Part shown: in pieces, positions 31,422 to 51,700 of the stretch
Position numbering within the stretch: the first letter of the stretch is position 1
Layout: every line of letters begins with the position of its first letter
The notes under the pieces: generated by a model
Told to the model about the DNA's origin: nothing
The model's input: only the letters and a program-made list of their open reading frames with translations
The model's database searches: none
Program-made: the position numbers and the translations under genes
Source of the DNA: Chondrosia reniformis
Lineage: Eukaryota; Porifera; Demospongiae; Chondrillida; Chondrillidae
Direction of reading: 5' to 3'
NCBI GenBank assembly: GCA_947172415.1
Contig: OX359199.1
Location: forward strand, 4,490,001 to 4,554,000
Length of the DNA: 64,000 bases

Positions 31422-38933
<7,512 letters not shown>

Positions 38934-39744: not shown

Positions 39745-42700
39745 TTATTTTGGTTTCAGTAAATATGAATCCATTGGTAAGGATCTGTAAGGGAGAGAAA
39801 CAAAGAGTACCAGACACTCAAGAGTTTAAATTAGTATGATAGGGCAGAAAGAGGCGTACCTGTAGTTTGATAGTGAATCCACAATCCAATACACTGAGAC
39901 AGCTTTTGCAGATGACATAGCTTTGAAAGGAGAGAAAGAGAGTCGTTAACAATGTGTGTTCGTACCTTAATTTGAAGTAGTATTGCAGGAGCAGTAAGCC
40001 TGGGATCACTTATTACATAAAAATTAGCTATCTAAGGATTTATTCCCCACATTAATTCGTTTCCAATTTACAATGTTTAACACAGAATTTGTGTCAATAT
40101 GATAGAGGACTCTAGATGTATGTACATATATAGATGTACATTTCTTGTGATGTTGGAATGTAAGTGTGGTACAGGGACTACAGGAAGTTACTACTACTAC
40201 TACTAATAATAATAAAAATGACTAATAATTATTATATATATCACGTTACCAGGGCAACCGGGTGATATCTGGGGTGTTACAAACCTTATATTTCACACTT
40301 GAACTAGTGATAAATATTATATCACCAGTAGGCCTACTCATGTTTATTTATCATCACCTTTACAATTGATTCAAATCATACATGATATATATTAATTATA
40401 CCACACTCAAGTGTGGTATAACTACTACATGTATAGCTTTATCATACGTGTTAGGCACTATCAATATACTGTAAAACCCTTAATATTAGTGCGCCATTAA
40501 TGTTAGCGAAATTAGCAATGCGATATCATTTATGGTCGCTATTATTATGCATGCACATATTTACAACAAAATGCTAAATTTAATGGATGCTAATAAGTCA
40601 TGTATGGTAAAATGCTAAATTATAAATGGACATTAATGTTAAGGGTTTTACAGTAATAACTATTACTTGTTACTGCTCCACTGTACACTTGAGGCTCCCA
40701 AACCTGAAGGAGTCCATCTTCGTGAGTCTTCCCATTTTCGTGAGTCTTCCCACCACACATTTGTATCAGCTGATTCAGCTGACCTACATGGACAGGTACA
40801 CAGGTAGGTGGCACAGCAGAACCAATGAGGATCAGTTCAAACATTAACTAGGATTTCATTATCTACGTATTTGTAAGTATCCTAATTTAGTGAGACTTAT
40901 TATGAACGCAACAAAAAACCCTTATCACTTCTATGTATACGTATGTATACGTACCTCCATATATGAATACTTAAGCATATAGAAAAAGGCATTACATTAA
41001 GTTATTGCGTCACATACCTGCTGTTAAATCATGAAATGATCCACAAACTTGAAATGTTAAGCCCTCAAAGAAACCTTTTCTCTAAATCAAAAAAAGAAAT
41101 CCAACAATTGGTATACATCATACAAGTCACTTAATGTACATACACACATACATATAATTAACAACTGCACATACATAATATGACACATGCTTCGAACTTG
41201 CTATACTCTGCAGGTGCTTTCCCGTGTACATACATGTGAACATACCTTGCTCACTCTAGCCACTCTGGGAATTCCAAACATGCAAGTAATAGTGTCACCC
41301 CTGACTTCAAAATCTTCCTGTTCAGAAAGTACATAGAACAATACGTGGATATGTGTATTTGTTGCTGTAAACATGATATACACAAAATTAGTGTATGTTC
41401 AAGTTTATCCAGTCACCCAAAGAGGTGAACCCTGTCATTTGGTCATTCAGCATGTATATATCTCATGTATATATATATCTCATCAATATGATTTGCAGGC
41501 TAGGACTACTAAGGTTTTGCTTTCCATAGCGCTATAGGTACGTACAAATATGAACTACTACCACATACCTCTGGTAGCAGGAAACCAGCTCTTGTAGACT
41601 CTTCAATCCCTAGATACGTATGTACAATCTAAAACACCATATTACGTCTGTCCTAGTCTTATAGGGAAATAAATCTAGTAAGAGCTTTGGATGAGGATAA
41701 AAGAGCCTTCTCTTTACTCTTCTGCTCCACTGAGCCATACTACTGTTTTTGGGAATACCATGCACCCTTCATCAGTGACCCTGTAAATCGGTCTGAAAAT
41801 TTTTTCCTTAAAATTCTTTGATACTTTGAATGGCTCTCCTCAGAACACAAACCTAGAAACATGTAGTTACATATTTCATCAGTTTAACTTACAATGGTGA
41901 CAGAGTATCCATCTTTTGGCCGCAATACCAAAGAGGTATTTCACTGTACGTGGACAACACTGATTCTCATCTAATATGTTTATGTATAGATAAGGGAAGA
42001 GTGAGATTCGGTGCACACAATGTGTTGGATCGAAAGGGACAAAAGTAGTACCTGTGGCCATAATGACATGAGTTGTACAAAGATTAAACGTTGTAGCCAA
42101 TCTTAGCTTGTGTTTGTCCACCAAACCTTGTAGTTGTTGCTAAACACAGAAGAAAAGACAAGACACTTGTACTACATATACCGTACTACACACATGTCTA
42201 TACAGATTCTGTGCTGATGTTCAGGACATATGTAGGTCTTACCATTAAATGGATCTTAAGACCAGAAGCAACCAATGAAAACTGTTTCTTCCTTTCAGAT
42301 GATGCTTGAATGACACTTTGATAGCCACGCTCTAGAACCCTTGATGCCAGTGGTGTTCCTGGAGTGGAGGTGCACTGTGAAATGTCATCCAGAGTTTTTC
42401 TGCTCAATTCTCCTTCAAAAGAATGAGGTACAGAGTCCTGTCTAGGAGTATCCCCCTTTTTGAAACTCAGCCTCTTCCTTTTGTCTTTAGTAGGAGACCA
42501 AAACTCTGTTGGCTGTCTCCTCTTGCTCCTTGCTCTAGAGTTCTCTGTGTCATACTTACCCCCCTCCTCAGTTACATTGAATTGACTGAGGGAAGGACCA
42601 AACGATGGCAGCATTTTGCTCTTTTTTACTAAGGGTTCTGAAGACTCTGACATGCCATCTTTTTCCACAGGCTGTTCAGACACAACAGCGTTCTTGTGAG

Positions 42701-45700
42701 ATGCCTTGATGGTAGTCAACAATGCCTTTGACTCTTCAATAAGTCTCCAAGTGCTACTCTTTCTATTTGTGCAATCATTCACTTCTAAGACAGAGACAGG
42801 AGGAGGTAAGAGATTTGCTGTTGTCTCGGCTGTAATCCTTTCATTTTGCAACTCTCTTTCCTCATTTTTGGGAGAGCCACTCTCTTCTGCAGCTAGTAGA
42901 CTGAAAGATTGCACTGATCCATGTAAAGCAGTGGGACCCACTCGTATATCTCCTTGAACTGGCAGAGGCACTGAATCTTGGATAGTGCTCACCTCAGCAC
43001 TACACTGCGAGTCATCTTTGAATGACATTTCTACAAGGTTGAATGACATTTCTACGAGGCTGCATAGCTGACTACCCATGTCAGTGTGTAGGGATCCATC
43101 ATTTTGTTGTGAGGAAGGGAAGGTGGCTGGAATGACATCTTTGGTTTCAGAATGCAGGTGAATGTCTTGAGAGAGGTTGAGCTTTTTCTGTCCAACTGAA
43201 TTTGGGAGGTATGTGTCTGTTTCATCTTTTCTAGGTGGATCATAATAGGCCTCACTTATGGCATTTGGAACAGGCTGTGAGGGGCTATCATGAATGATAC
43301 TACACACTGCTGACAAGTCTGAGGCCTTTGGCATGACTGGAGATGATGAAGCTGATTCTGTGAAGGCTTCCAGCAATCTCTCCACTTTAAAATCGACATC
43401 AGAGGCTGCTGGTAGGTACGGTTCTTGACCATCATCTTCACTTGTGAATGGGTCTGCTTCAAAGGCCAGATCTTTTGACAAGCAGAACAGCTCCCTCTCA
43501 ATGAGCTCATACAATGCCCCCTCGCTATCAGGGAAGATGGACGTTCCATCTTTTGATTGATTGACAATTGTATCAAGAATAGAACCTTCTTCAAGATCGA
43601 TTTTCATTTTTTTACTTCCATGATTTGGGAGTGGGGATGGTAATTGATTCCTTAAGGCCATACTGATATCATTAGTGGCTTGATTGAGCGAATCATTGGG
43701 TTGGAGTTCTGGATACACTTGAGCAATGCTCACTTCAGCATTTTCAGCTCGTAGTTCATTTATAGATTCTTGATCACTTTGCATTTCCAGAAGGGCATTC
43801 AATTCTGCTAGCTCCCTCTCTTTGGCCTCAAGCTTACTCTGCAGCTGCTGAATGTCCTGTAAACAAATGTAAAAGGCCACTATATCACAGTTCATAGAGT
43901 GTGAATATGAAGACACGAGTCATCATCATATTCAATATTCAAACACATGTGCAAAAGGCATAGGGAAGACCTAGTGAAATATAAAACTAATTAATAATAT
44001 AGCTAACCAACATAAGCTGCCAGTGGCAAACGTGCATAAAGTCACTATATATCTTGTAGAGACCTGTGTGGCTAGGCAGTTCTGACATATCTAGTTTCAT
44101 TCAATACTAGCCAAGATAAACAATTCAAATTCATTGATAAAGGTAGCTGTAAGCTGCTGAAACATTTGACTTTAAATTGTTTATCTTGGCTAGTGTTGAA
44201 TGATACTACAAAAGTCACTATATATTATTCAACTCACCTGTGTGTTGGGATTTTCGCTCATAGTGCCAAATGAATCTAAAGTACACATATAATATACGTA
44301 CATTATCATGTAAATTGGCAACAAAACATTCATTGATACCTCTACTTACAGTCACTAAATGGAGATATAATACTCTTGGAGTTCACAGAAGAGGAGTGGC
44401 TCGGCTGTGCTCCAGAAGAGGAGTGGCCCAGCTGTGCTTCAGAAGAGGAGTGGCCCGGCTGTGCTTCAGTAGGGGAGTGGCCCAGCTGTGCTTCAGTAGG
44501 GGAGTGGCCCAGCTGTGCTTCAGAAGAGGAGTGGCTCGGCTGTGCTTCAGTAGGGGAGTGGCCCAGCTGTGCTTCAGAAGAGGAGTGGCTCGGCTGTGCT
44601 CCAGAAGGGGAGTGGCCCAGCTGTGCTTCAGAAGGGGAGTGGCCCAGCTGTGCTTCAGAAGGGGAGTGGCCCAGCTGTGCTTCAGAAGAGGAGTGGCTCG
44701 GCTGTGCTCCAGAAGGGGAGTGGCCCAGCTGTGCTTCAGAAGGGGAGTGGCCCAGCTGTGCTTCAGTAGGGGAGTGGCCCAGCTGTGCTTCAGTAGGGGA
44801 GTGGCCCAGCTGTGCTTCAGAAGGGGAGTGGCCCAGCTGTGCTTCAGAAGGGGAGTGGCCCAGCTGTGCTTCAGAAGAGGAGTGGCTCGGCTGTGCTCCA
44901 GAAGGGGAGTGGCCCAGCTGTGCTTCAGAAGGGGAGTGGCCCAGCTGTGCTTCAGAAGGGGAGTGGCCCAGCTGTGCTTCAGTAGGGGAGTGGCCCAGCT
45001 GTGCTTCAGTAGGGGAGTGGCCCAGCTGTGCTCCAGAAGGGGAGTGGCCCAGCTGTGCTTCAGAAGGGGAGTGGCCCAGCTGTGCTTCAGTAGGGGAGTG
45101 GCCCAGCTGTGCTTCAGTAGGGGAGTGGCCCAGCTGTGCTTCAGAAGGGGAGTGGCCCAGCTGTGCTTCAGTAGGGGAGTGGCCCAGCTGTGCTTCAGAA
45201 GGGGAGTGGCCCAGCTGTGCTTTAGAAAGAGAGTGACTCGGCTGTGCTTCAGAAGGGGAGTGACTCGGCTGTGCTTCAGAAAGCGGGGATGCATTAAAGT
45301 CTAAACCTGGCAGAGCACAAGCAGAGAATCTGTTGCTGCCTTCCTGGCTGGGAGTTTTCTCAGGTGTCCCTTCTATGATATAATGGCATAGCTGTCCTGC
45401 TGTCCCTTGGTCCTTGCTTGATGAGCCTGAACTTGACTCTGAGCTGGTCTGAATGGGAATATTGGGAGACTGACTATCTGTTACACACTTGGACTGCAGT
45501 GCTTTTGGTGTGGAGGCTGCAGCTGGCAAGCTCGATGGGATGATGGAAGGAGACAGGGAAGGAACAGGTGGAAGGGGAGTAGAATCACACATACTAAAGT
45601 TGGAATCAGGAGGTTTGGTGTCCATAGTAAAACTGTCTTCAATAACAGCTTTCAGCCTCTTTGAAGGATGAGTTGGAGAAAGGAAACCTGCCTCGCTTTG

Positions 45701-48158
45701 AGTGCAATCCATCACTTGCGCTGTGCTGGAAAAACTGTGCTCTGTTATCTTATCCTTCTTGCCATTTGCACAAGGAACAGAGACAGACTTTGTGCTGTGA
45801 AAATAATAATTCAATGATTTATTCCTGCGTTTGCTCCTGGTCGATCTAGTTAACTCATTAAATTTGATAGTGTCAATATCCTCTTCCTCCTCCACTGTAT
45901 TCATTATCAGAATACCTTCCACAGAGTTATCCTTATCTATTATACTGCTCTCGAAAGGAGAGAGTGATGGGGAGGCTATCTCTCCTAAGCTAAGTGTAGT
46001 AGTGGAGCTGCTGGTGTCGGATGGCCAGCTAACGATTTTGCCATCCAAACCATGTTCACATTGGTCGGCTGTCGGGGTATCTACTAATGGACTGGATGAT
46101 GGAACAGATGTGTGGGCAGATGAGGGATGACCACTTGTTGTATGAATTATTGGAGCCTGGAGTCCATCTTTGTCAGTTGGTACAGTATATAGCATATTTG
46201 AATTGCCATCTACAGGAGTAATGTTTGAATGTTCTCCAACGCCAGGTGCTGGGTGCCTGGGTGTGACTTGTGAGTCAGATGTACTCCTCCCAGTTGTTGG
46301 AATACTATATCCCTGGACGCTGAGTGGGGTACAAGGAATGGCAACAACACCTTCATAGGGGCTTTCTGGAACTTTATTCGCCTGGCTTAGTGAATGTTTT
46401 AAGAATACTTTTATATCAGATGACAAATTTTTTGAAGGTGTATCTCTATCAGATGATGGTTGCTTGGAAGGTGTAGCTTTATCAGATGATTGTTGCTTGG
46501 AAGGTGTAGCTTTATCAGATGATTGTTGCTTGGAAGGCGTATCTTTATCAGATGATGGTTGTTTGGAATGTATATCTTTATCAGATGATGGTTGCTTGGA
46601 AGGTGTAGCTTTATCAGATGATGGTTGCTTGGAAGGTGTAGCTTTATCAGATGATGGTTGCTTGGAAGGTGTAGCTTTATCAGATGATGGTTGCTTGGAA
46701 GGTGTAGCTTTATCAGACTGTTCTGAGGGAGATGGAACAGAGACTGACACATCTTTAGAATAAGACTGCTTCCCTTCCAAAGATGAGGAGTGTCTAATGG
46801 TGTTGAGAATTATTGTGATGGGTAGCACACTCCTTCACACCTTATCATGGCTACATGCATCAAAAGTGGTACGTACCTGATCCTTTTCTTAGCTCTACTC
46901 CGTGAAATTCTAGTCACTGATTCATGTACATCAAAGTTGGCTCCAGATGACTCCTATATACAGGTATATATACATAGATTTATCTCAGTACATATGTTGC
47001 TACAGTGCCTATAAGATACGTATATGTATACAGTGGAAACTGGTTAACAAGTACTCCTGGTATCATACCTTTTATCAGTAGTTCTTGTTAAACAATAGTA
47101 CTGCTATAATACCGTTATACAAAGTTTTGCAAAATATGCAGCTCCATATATAGTTAAAAGTAGTCATTATGTGAGCTGTGCTTTGTGAACGTTAAATAGT
47201 TAAACTAATAGTCAGTTGCCAAATTGTTGTTCTTGTTAACAGTACACATTCTTGTTAAATGTTTTGCATATTAGGGGCTCTGTTTTCCAAGTTTTGTTTG
47301 TATAAAGCAATAATTCACGTAAGGTGTGTGTGTTGGCCAGTTTCCACTGTATAGTATATTACTGGGTATTGGGAATGTACCAAATTGGAATATGTCCATA
47401 TATACAAAGCATATATCACATACGTAGTACAGCACATGTTTATTATCACGTGATGGGTATGAATGGGATCACATATACGTACATCATGCTAAAACACTGG
47501 AAAGGCTGTTCATTATTATAACAGAAATTTCTTACTTTGGGACCAACTTTTAAAGCACTTTTCTGTGGCTTCTGTGGTGTAGGATGCAAGAGGGAGTGAA
47601 AGAGGATTCCAGGAGTACCTCTGCTCTCGTGTGTATGCCAAATAGCTTGCGGTGGTGTTTCTAATAGGAAGAAAGGAATACGATGGAGTGATAGATTAGT
47701 ATTACTTCGTCTATCTTCATACTTGCTATGCCAGTGTCTTCAATAAGAGCTGTTTCTAACTTTTTTACAGCTTCAACAATTTCTCCCAATCTGCTACTTT
47801 CGTGAATACTTCTACATACATACATACATTAAGTAGAGTATTGCGTGCAACATTCTACGACACTTCGTGTAAGTGACTATTGTGTGAGTGACTTACCTTC
47901 TTGAGATTGGCGCCTTGCACAGCGGACATTTTGGACTTTTACTGGAGGTTATAACAGTTGTGATGCATGGTCGACAAAATGGGTGGTTGCAATGAGACGA
48001 GTATGGGTCGCTTAAGAGCTCCAAACTAGCAATAAAGGAGGCATCAATTGGAAGATAGCTATCTTTTCCTTCAATGACAATTTAACTAACCAAATCGCGC
48101 ATTCGAGGTTCTTTTTCATTTTTCTTAGTATTTCTTTGACCTTGTTTGCTATCTCCAT
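39745..48158 (-). CDS. BRCA1: BRCA1 homologue with RING, coding minisatellites, coiled coil and two BRCTs
   Basis: BRCA1 is an E3 ubiquitin ligase (with BARD1) and homologous-recombination scaffold. Exons: 48091-48158, 47897-48025, 47723-47811, 47536-47660, 46877-46953, 44350-46793, 44238-44275, 42243-43856, 42052-42139, 41893-41970, 41569-41609, 41246-41317, 41018-41081, 40687-40783, 39966-40008, 39860-39920, 39745-39784; about 1,720 residues (human 1,863). The C3HC4 RING reads LECAICLELL...HCNHPFCRPC...CPLC, followed by RRSIHESSRLGEIVE as in human. Exon 6 holds the repeats. Exon 8 starts with a coiled coil (LQSKLEAKERELAELNALLE) placed like the human PALB2-binding helix. BRCT1 has VASGL, RTVKYLFGIA and EDFEVRGD. 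BRCT2 ends VSVYWIVDSLSNYRS. The exon 14/15 junction is one base out of phase, and the exon 13 end is uncertain. Confidence 0.9.
40397..40420. repeat. Short perfect hairpin (11-bp arms)
   Basis: TATACCACACT and AGTGTGGTATA flank a CA centre, in BRCA1 intron 13 next to the family C MITE. Confidence 0.85.
40467..40655. mobile_element. MITE-like element, family C
   Basis: TA, then CTGTAAAACCCTTAATATTA, and at the other end TAATGTTAAGGGTTTTACAG, then TA: inverted ends of about 20 bp with TA target duplication. It is 185 bp, AT-rich and non-coding. It sits in BRCA1 intron 13, about 30 bp from the inferred exon 13 donor. Confidence 0.88.
41655..41800 (-). repeat. Dispersed repeat family A, copy 5
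   Basis: In reverse orientation: CTTATAGGGAAATAAATCTA, GAGCTTTGGATGAGGATA, GTTTTTGGGAATACCATG and CCTTCATCAGTGACCCTG. It lies in a BRCA1 intron between the two BRCT1 exon groups. Confidence 0.8.
44098..44200. repeat. Long inverted repeat (about 30-bp arms)
   Basis: ACTAGCCAAGATAAACAATT near 44107 pairs with AATTGTTTATCTTGGCTAGT near 44175, and the match extends to CATTCAA/TTGAATG outside. The loop is about 45 bp. It is in BRCA1 intron 7. Confidence 0.9.
44395..45290 (-). repeat. BRCA1: Coding 27-bp minisatellite in BRCA1 exon 6, about 33 copies
   Basis: On the coding strand each unit encodes SEAQLGHSP, with variants TEAQLGHSP, SGAQPSHSS and SEAQPSHSS. The unit is 27 bp, so any copy-number change keeps frame. 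The DNA has no stop in several other frames, which yields long antisense false ORFs. Confidence 0.95.
46436..46715 (-). repeat. BRCA1: Coding 33-bp minisatellite in BRCA1 exon 6, about 9 copies
   Basis: Each unit encodes an 11-residue repeat of the type SSDKATPSKQP. Two central units diverge (DIHSKQ, DTPSKQQ). It is Ser/Thr-Pro rich and basic. Confidence 0.93.
47029..47351. mobile_element. MITE-like element, family D
   Basis: TA, CAGTGGAAACTGG at the left and CCAGTTTCCACTG, TA at the right. It is about 320 bp and non-coding, in BRCA1 intron 4. The CAGT...GTTAACAAG start resembles family E at 34546. Confidence 0.82.
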
Positions 48159-48797: not shown

Positions 48798-51700
48798 TTA
48801 CTGACAATCCCCATGTGAATCTTGCTTGTATATTGACTCATCAATGATATCAAAATCTCCTTTTAGGATAGCCTCTCTGACTTCCATGGGAATGACAAAG
48901 CTGTCAGGTCTTGAGTGTACATGGTTCCTTTTCGTGCGGTTCACAACCTTTCTGCTGTGGAAGTCGGGCACATCCTTGTGAGAAGATGGAGAGTGTCTCC
49001 TGTGGGAGTTGGGCACATCCTTGTGAGAAGATGGAGAGTGTCTGCTGTGCTCATTATCAACAGGACCACCAGAGGTAGGTAGCAGAATGACTTCATCCTT
49101 CTTGTAGGCAGTAGTGGACCCTTGGTTTGGAATATCCTGAACTAGCATAGACCGTGGATGTATTTCAGGTGCTTGTCCGGACCCAGGTATCTGGAGGGGG
49201 GTCCTCATGAGTGCCGGACTACTCATGGTGGGCAGGTCACTGGAAGATACTCCATGGGTGAGCATTTGTAGACTATTGGCTACTGAGGAAGGTCCTTCAG
49301 TGACATCACTTGATGAGGCTACCATATTTCTGTCAGAATCTGCTGATGAAGATGATGTAACTTCAGATTTTGGTTTATCCTGATTGCTATGAGGGGAAAA
49401 CCCCTTGATAGTTGATTGAGAGGATTGGAGTGAAGAATGTGTAACCTCCAGAGGCTGCTGAGGGCTTTCTATTGGAAGATGCGCCTTCACCTCTCGACCA
49501 GATGACAATGTTTCAGAGAGAGCAGCAGAATCTTTCTTGTTCTTGGTGTTCCGCTCCGTTACTAAGTTGGCTGTACCGGCTAAAAGTTTGGAGTTAGGTG
49601 ATGTACTGTACATATTCTCCTTTTCAAACATCTTTTTCACCTTCTCCAAAGATGGTTTCAACTTATCAAATGATGTATCAGTTTTACTTGATTCTGTTAA
49701 ATCCTTCTCTGAATGAGTGCAAGTTTTATCCAATGGTAATGTAATGCTTTCTAAAAGGGATGACATCTCTAGCTTTTCTGGGTAAGATGATGATTTTATT
49801 CCTTCTTCGGGGATATCCCTCTCATCGGGGTAGGAGGAGTCATAGGATGACTGACCACCGGCAGCAAATGAAGATGTGCAGGAAGAGATGGGTGAATTGT
49901 CAGCAGACAAGACGTTGTCCATCGACAAAGATATGGAGGAATCCACCGACATGGTGGATTCATGGTGGGTCTTGATGGGCCTGCTTACTTCCATTTCCAT
50001 TAGCCAAGGGTGAGCAAGGCATTCCTTGGATGTCAACCGATCCCTATAAGGTGTAGCAGCAGTTTAAGATCAACATCAGTAAAACACATTAAAGGTTTAC
50101 ATAAACTATCAAGTGCAACATCAAAGTTGAGTGTACATTCATTTTATTGCTGTCAATACACAAGCTAGTCTGACTGGCTGGCTTTGGAGTATCAACTTAC
50201 TTTGGTTTCTTTACAAGCAACTTTCCGATAAAATCTTTGGCATTGTCCGAGATTGTAGCAAATACCTCATCTTCATAATCATAATTTATCATGGACACAT
50301 TGAGGTAAGTTTCCTGGTGGGTTTCGCCCTGGAAGGGGGAATACCCTGCCATTCTGTTGGAAGACAGAGAAACAACAAGACATTGGTCAACACAAACTTG
50401 TATACATAATCCCCACTAACACATTATTACGTACGTGGGCAGGTCATGAAACGGGATAGCCGAAAGATTATAAGCCCAATAGATAAGTATAAACTAAATA
50501 ATTAATGATCTGTATAATATTATAACAATTCAAGCAGTTGGCTTGTTTGATATTGCCATCTCATTTCAGTGAAGTGTACACACTTACAATGAGTAGGTAA
50601 GGGCTCCTACACTCCACATATCAGAAGCACAGCCTATGGCCTCGTAATTAAGAATCTCTGGAGCCACATATTCTGCTGTTCCAACCAAGTTTCTCAATAT
50701 CTCTCCTGGTTGGAGTTGTACTGCTAGTCCAAAGTCTGCCACCTTGATATCGAGGGACTCCTTAGCACACAACAAGATGTTCTCCGGCTACAGGAGGGAA
50801 TAGAAGGTATTGTTGATGGGAATTGTCTGTATCTCTGTGTGGAATAGGATACCATTCTTTCAGGAGATAGCAGCTATCAAATGTCACATGGATATGTGTG
50901 GCACTTGTTACAATCACTTGCAACTATTTCAACACTGTATTTACACAATATATACAGGTGCAAAACAGGTCAGTTTGACAGTGTAACTTGACTCTACATT
51001 TTATCCACTCTTTAATTGTTCCCAATGAGTGGAAACATGAAAAAAGAGTCCAAAATCAATTTGATGGGAATTAGGGCAGGGTAAATCCAGAATTACATAA
51101 TACTATGCATCACTATTGTCTGATAGTACCAGTTTCAGATCTCATATTCCCCACCTATTCATCCTCCTATCTGTTCATCCTAGGCATGTATGCAGCTTAA
51201 ACCAGTGAAATACAACTTCATACAATGATTGTTATCTGGTATGTAGCTTAAAGGAAGTATCTGTAATACAATATACATGTGGTGAAAATAAGAGGAGGCT
51301 GATAGGGTTAGGGGCAGAGACAGGCTGGTGTCTGAAGAGAGACCTTGTAGATAACACACACAGAAAGAGGTGGATGATGAAAAACAATGTTTATTGCAGT
51401 GTGGATATTCGGTGTAATGAGATTTGCATTAACCTGGTGAAAGAATTACTGAAAATGAGTATAAGAAGGCAGTGTTAATATTGGATCTATTTTGTAAGAT
51501 ATCAATATCAGAGACATGCTTAAAAGACTTGTGGAGTTTGTTTTGAACATACTGTATTCTCTAACTACACATATTCCTATACACAGTTCTACTTGGGGCA
51601 AATGCCCAAAGCTATTCTACACTGGGAATAACATACCAGCCTTGATTACATTAATTGCCTGAGTGTTAGTTACCAGGTCTTATATTAAGTCATAAAAACT

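Follow-up and report, generated by a model that had tools for sequence, protein, structure and literature searches.

An apparently length-polymorphic coding minisatellite in the large central exon of BRCA1 from the sponge Chondrosia reniformis

The window, by which is meant the whole stretch of 64,000 nucleotides of Chondrosia reniformis DNA that was analysed, is located on contig 11, which is 7,633,987 bp long; the genome comprises 117,379,552 bases and 15 contigs. On its minus strand it carries an orthologue of BRCA1, for which a 16-exon model of 1714 residues was built by hand using splice motifs and continuous phase. The exons and the tandem arrays named in the text, all coordinates being those of the window, are as follows:

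48158-48091 and 48025-47897, minus strand: exons 1 and 2, with the start codon and the RING finger
47811-47723 and 47660-47536, minus strand: exons 3 and 4, with agreeing phases and GT-AG splice sites
46877..46953, minus strand: exon 5
46793-44350, minus strand: exon 6, the large central exon (2444 bp), containing both arrays, donor ACT/GTAAGT
46415..46711, minus strand: 33-bp in-frame array in exon 6, nine units of the type KATPSKQPSSD (Tandem Repeats Finder, 46434-46717, 8.6 copies)
45280-44387, minus strand: 27-bp coding minisatellite in exon 6, 33 units and a trailing Ser codon, 298 amino acids, residues 668-965
44238..44275, minus strand: exon 7 (38 bp), directly downstream of the array exon
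42243..43856, minus strand: exon 8 (1614 bp), opening with the leucine-rich RELAELNALLE
43018-43059: 21-bp duplication (two copies; Tandem Repeats Finder) inside exon 8
42139-42052, 41970-41893, 41609-41569, 41317-41246, 41081-41018 and 40783-40667, minus strand: exons 9 to 14, with BRCT1 and most of BRCT2
39920-39860 and 39784-39745, minus strand: exons 15 and 16, with the end of BRCT2 and the stop codon

The identification of the gene as BRCA1, already made in the first-pass annotation, was borne out at both ends of the predicted protein. The N-terminal RING (residues 6-94) matched human BRCA1 at 4.4e-21, the next molecule among the best 60 of 97 sequences being TRIM30 at 6.9e-13; the matching region reaches residue 94, and its tail is encoded in exon 3. 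The last 224 residues matched the BRCT part of human BRCA1 at 1.1e-27 and the best BARD1 chain at 3.2e-6, and an identity as BARD1 was rejected on these values. Both arrays lie in the reading frame of this gene. When the spliced protein was searched against Pfam, BRCT was found above the cut-off (4.4e-10) while BRCT_2 reached 26.4 bits against a cut-off of 27.3. The second BRCT is divergent, with a Pfam score just under the cut-off and with residues of vertebrate BRCT2 absent in the alignment. An SG pair and an R-T-x-K motif, which we take to be the phosphoserine pocket of BRCA1, are conserved in alignments with BRCA1, as is the basic pair after the RING. When the whole genome was searched with Pfam BRCT, nine matches were returned, none of them at the BRCA1 gene, whose BRCT exons are short. 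The least certain point of the model is the junction of exons 14 and 15. An 18-bp repeat of 2.2 copies (GKTHENGKTHED) was located at 40714-40752 in exon 14, within BRCT2, where vertebrates have a longer and different segment; BRCT2 may be altered at this point, or the exon model may be incomplete there.

The start of exon 8, RELAELNALLE, resembles QQMAELEAVLEQ of protein P0028, and by this resemblance it is a candidate, not a proven, PALB2-binding coiled coil. A motif drawn up post hoc matched one of 31 homologues; when the sponge protein was shuffled 2000 times it appeared in 4 of the shuffled sequences. MAFFT left the stretch unaligned. The same genome was searched for possible partners of the protein. 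A BARD1-type RING profile gave two matches below the cut-off; a typed BARD1 RING query gave nine, the best at 6.8e-6, RINGs being common. The search for the WD40 domain of PALB2 gave no match in this genome, and the controls likewise gave none. Two further minus-strand frames resembled kinases by eye. The one at 48798-50063 looks like the tail of a Ser/Thr kinase and contains a 45-bp repeat of 2.2 copies at 48951-49049 (Tandem Repeats Finder); the one at about 38960-38460 looks like the beginning of a ZAK-like kinase.

The 27-bp array forms the 3' end of exon 6, close to its donor. Tandem Repeats Finder reported it as one array at 44386-45281 (period 27, 33.2 copies, 93% matches, 0% indels, score 1498), and identity at an offset of 27 bases was 0.93, a value that never exceeded 0.32 when the bases of the array were shuffled 500 times. 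The first-pass annotation of a 27-bp unit repeated in frame 33 times in the large central exon, over some 300 residues, was reproduced by this program and by the table of units; its placement at 44395-45290 was shifted by about 9 bp. In frame, unit 1 begins at 45280 and unit 33 at 44390, and the trailing Ser codon ends at 44387. The tandem unit thus falls within the range of 10 to 100 bp used for variable-number tandem repeats (VNTRs), and the array is read as part of a gene's coding frame. Ten unit types were distinguished around the consensus SEAQLGHSP, which itself accounts for 14 of the 33 units, followed by TEAQLGHSP with 8. The units end in HSP (25 of 33), HSS (7 of 33) or HSL (1 of 33), so that the Ser-Pro site attributed to every unit in the first reading is present in 25 only. 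Relative to the consensus, nine types of single-base variant were counted, seven nonsynonymous and two synonymous, against 59:22 possible; in this small sample of nine variant types there was no sign of amino-acid constraint. Higher-order repeat structure was considered and rejected: the longest repeated block spans five units, a length reached in 658 of 2000 shuffles, and block-wise unequal exchange is for that reason not directly visible. The array alone, modelled with AlphaFold2 without an alignment, had a mean pLDDT of 41.8 and no helix or strand of listed length. The region is probably disordered, a low pLDDT from a single-sequence model proving little.

The 33-bp array, which is missing from the first-pass annotation, lies upstream in the same exon. 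TPSK is present in eight of its nine units and fits the full consensus site of CDKs.

A second version of exon 6 was obtained by a protein search in which 5.8 billion proteins were covered and the 7982 candidates sharing most words with the query were scored. The repeats may have consumed words in this word-based search. The one match, protein P0001 (639 aa), is the same exon with 12 units instead of the 33 of the window, a difference of 189 residues. Before the array P0001 departs from the window reading frame at two positions only, the start residue and a P-to-L change immediately preceding the array; after the array all residues match. At the protein level its units 1 and 3-8 equal those of the window, unit 2 is TETQPSHSL where the window has SEAQPSHSL, and units 9-12 differ from the window units in the same order. 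The length change therefore seems, from this one protein-level comparison, to fall mainly towards the C-terminal end, a pattern known from minisatellites whose turnover is polarised. The 33-bp array is identical in the two versions, and thus not every array in exon 6 is hypervariable.

The contig that encodes P0001 is 7,880,420 bp long, which fits none of the eleven contigs examined in this assembly and no chromosome in Table 3 of PMC12181767. The corresponding protein search with exon 8 (5.8 billion proteins, 7987 candidates sharing most words scored) likewise gave one match on the same contig, and exon 8 is 100% identical on the two contigs, of which the 7,880,420-bp one is the longer. On the strength of the near-identical flanks and the identical exon 8, the second contig was taken to belong to the same species. 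Read most simply it would be the other haplotype of the sequenced animal, although it could derive from another individual. According to the portions of PMC12181767 available, an alternate haplotype was deposited, and k-mer completeness was 69.43% for the primary assembly and 93.73% for the combined one; this gap suggests high heterozygosity. The cluster of P0001 holds three member sequences. The window version and P0001 may account for two of them, and a third variant may exist. Copy number thus differs between 33 and 12 units within what is, as judged from the flanking residues, one species, which is the polymorphism that defines a VNTR. The array appears to be length-polymorphic, with at least two alleles of 33 and 12 units (only one further allele having been seen), and the variability in length foretold in the first-pass annotation accordingly found its example.

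The background of tandem arrays was sampled in twenty random 10-kb pieces (200 kb in total). Sixty-seven arrays with a period of at least 9 occupied 13.1% of these bases, and at least one array was present in 17 of the 20 pieces. Since six of the 67 reached at least 33 copies, an array of 33 copies is unusual but not exceptional in this genome. Periods divisible by three were over-represented (32 of 67). The DNA unit coding for SEAQLGHSP was found 28 times at up to three mismatches, always in this array and nowhere else in the genome, by which an origin from a dispersed repeat was rejected. At the protein level the array units gave 22 matches in the genome, 6 in this array and 16 elsewhere. 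Two of the latter, on contig 13, were examined and turned out to be 27-bp arrays whose units are unrelated; the others are on contigs 5, 6 or 11 and at a third place on contig 13. Because both examined places had unrelated units, the matches elsewhere were attributed to a chance likeness between periodic peptides.

The two 27-bp arrays examined on contig 13 have 41.6 and 13.2 copies and lie in open frames. The 41.6-copy array (L051:62-1184) can be read without a stop for 400 residues on one strand and for 385 on the other. A 19-bp array of 24.5 copies (L049:4936-5400), its period not a multiple of three, is found in a stop-free frame of 784 aa, and a 24-bp array of 11.5 copies (L049:3694-3969) has a frame length that is also 784 aa. 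Within the window a long array rich in GTGG and GTGA extends over 35656-36351, its copy number ranging from 3.5 to 27 with the period chosen by Tandem Repeats Finder. BRCA2 was recognised by eight BRC-repeat matches in a frame of 1668 aa, with seven stretches in the part examined (contig 8, 6139254-6141644). It carries arrays of 33 bp x 10.1, 24 bp x 8.1 and 258 bp x 2.6, all in one open frame, the last consisting of tandem-duplicated BRC units with 99% matches. The BRCA1 array would then be one case of a tendency common to the whole genome and visible where coding regions are under loose constraint.

For comparison with other BRCA1 proteins, a search with the BRCT region gave 31 homologues from 680 candidates, all vertebrates by name (27 birds, two eels, a lungfish and a shark). 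None of the 31 had a comparable tandem repeat; in a simple self-match scan their best periodic identity was 0.45, against 1.0 and 0.95 in the sponge. The first-pass view that tandem repeats are foreign to known BRCA1 held among these homologues, in a comparison that is narrow, birds making up 27 of the 31. No other sponge was among the matches to exon 6 or exon 8 in the protein searches described above. In viral contigs, neither an identical copy of a 21-base stretch of the unit nor a relative of exon 8 turned up. Among the literature matches listed, judged by titles and the starts of abstracts, there was no report of tandem repeats in BRCA1 of sponges or other invertebrates. BRCA2 and BRIP1 were found in every studied species except some protostomes in a study that includes Amphimedon (PMC4219131, available in part), and the available text of PMC11061109 gives no description of a sponge BRCA1.

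Like the sponge protein, vertebrate BRCA1 has a RING, a long and poorly conserved middle and tandem BRCTs with the residues of the phosphoserine pocket kept, the middle being one giant exon; in contrast to the sponge it had no tandem repeat in the 31 homologues. The BRC repeats of BRCA2 resemble the array as a repeated motif in a large exon of a partner gene, but they bind RAD51, whereas the SEAQLGHSP unit has no known ligand. VNTRs are familiar from disordered or secreted proteins such as MUC1, DRD4 and PER3, with which the array shares a short in-frame unit, an unstructured region and length alleles, and from which it differs in that its host gene is the homologue of a DNA-repair tumour suppressor. 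The zinc-finger array of PRDM9 is likewise made of in-frame units that vary in copy number between alleles and turn over by duplication, deletion and conversion, with 7 to 17 repeats and one allele of 2 in wild mice (PMC3890296, available in part). The units of PRDM9 are folded DNA-binding fingers, unlike those of the sponge, for which there is no predicted fold or known domain. What seems new is a BRCA1 with an apparently length-polymorphic repeat tract; coding minisatellites, of which that of PRDM9 is well studied, are already known.

The array is probably best explained as a coding VNTR in a likely disordered linker of BRCA1, with a turnover driven by recombination or slippage, and tolerated as its period is a multiple of three. 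Units would be added or removed through unequal exchange, gene conversion or slippage, the processes at work in other minisatellites. Changes in copy number would keep the reading frame, the unit being 27 bp, and the protein would tolerate the differences in length because the linker that holds the array, between the RING and the BRCT part, is probably unstructured. The four arrays detected by Tandem Repeats Finder in the BRCA1 coding sequence have periods of 18, 21, 27 and 33, all divisible by three, an argument for the keeping of frame that is weak since the genome sample is also enriched in such periods (32/67). We infer that the array is nearly neutral and is retained in mRNA and protein.

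Three rival readings were weighed. Instead of being nearly neutral the array could be a tunable phosphorylation domain, more units offering more Ser-Pro sites to CDK or MAPK kinases and length setting charge or binding capacity. Such a function would suit the HSP endings of 25 of the 33 units, and the 33-bp array with its eight TPSK sites, unchanged between alleles, would suit it too. It is nonetheless unlikely, in view of the eight units that lack Ser-Pro, of unit variants with no sign of amino-acid constraint (7:2) and of the short allele, in which 10 of 12 units would have Ser-Pro compared with 25 of 33. Moreover, further open frames contain 27-bp arrays built of different units, and the genome is full of arrays, three of them in BRCA2. 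Retention in mRNA would fail if the array were spliced out of most transcripts and were in effect an intronic minisatellite. The large central exon of human BRCA1 uses an internal donor, a precedent for such splicing, and the array adjoins the 3' donor of exon 6. Donor sites were scored with a simple matrix. Two GT sites upstream of the array, at 46351 and 45916, are in phase with exon 7, and their score of 4.1 exceeds that of the weakest accepted donors (3.6). Only three sites inside exon 6 exceed 4, and the best of them (45489, 6.2) is out of phase and below the exon's own donor (6.7). With these scores, routine removal is not favoured. The frame runs open without indels through the array in both versions, but a stop-free 27-bp unit would stay open unselected too. 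Splicing out in most transcripts is on the whole quite improbable.

The difference in copy number might itself be an accident of assembly, tandem arrays being classic sites of assembly error and the second contig having a different count. For the reference count this is hardly credible. The assembly was made from HiFi reads (0.80 million reads, 10.31 Gb; primary QV 69.8; PMC12181767, in the part available), and about 12.9 kb per read compares with an array of 0.9 kb. The 12-unit version has TETQPSHSL and SGAQPSHSP, unit types absent from the window array, as well as a different residue before unit 1, and is for these reasons not a mere collapse of the longer one. The same exon with 12 units, near-identical flanks and an identical exon 8 on a second contig make an assembly accident unlikely and underlie the reading of the array as length-polymorphic.

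A further and speculative thought, to which only a slim chance is given, is that BRCA1 and BRCA2, a core gene pair of homologous recombination, both carry hypervariable coding minisatellites that are mutated by the very recombination these proteins control, the lengths feeding back on repair choice and on minisatellite load. If true, the reach of the linker and its load of Ser-Pro sites would depend on the length of the BRCA1 allele (12 to 33 or more units). A BRCA1 that apparently tolerates a 189-residue difference between two alleles is a natural experiment on the extent to which the central region serves for spacing alone. This matters for how variants and skipping isoforms of the large exon 11 of human BRCA1 are interpreted. 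Coding arrays in both BRCA1 and BRCA2 offer a system for following minisatellite turnover inside core repair genes.
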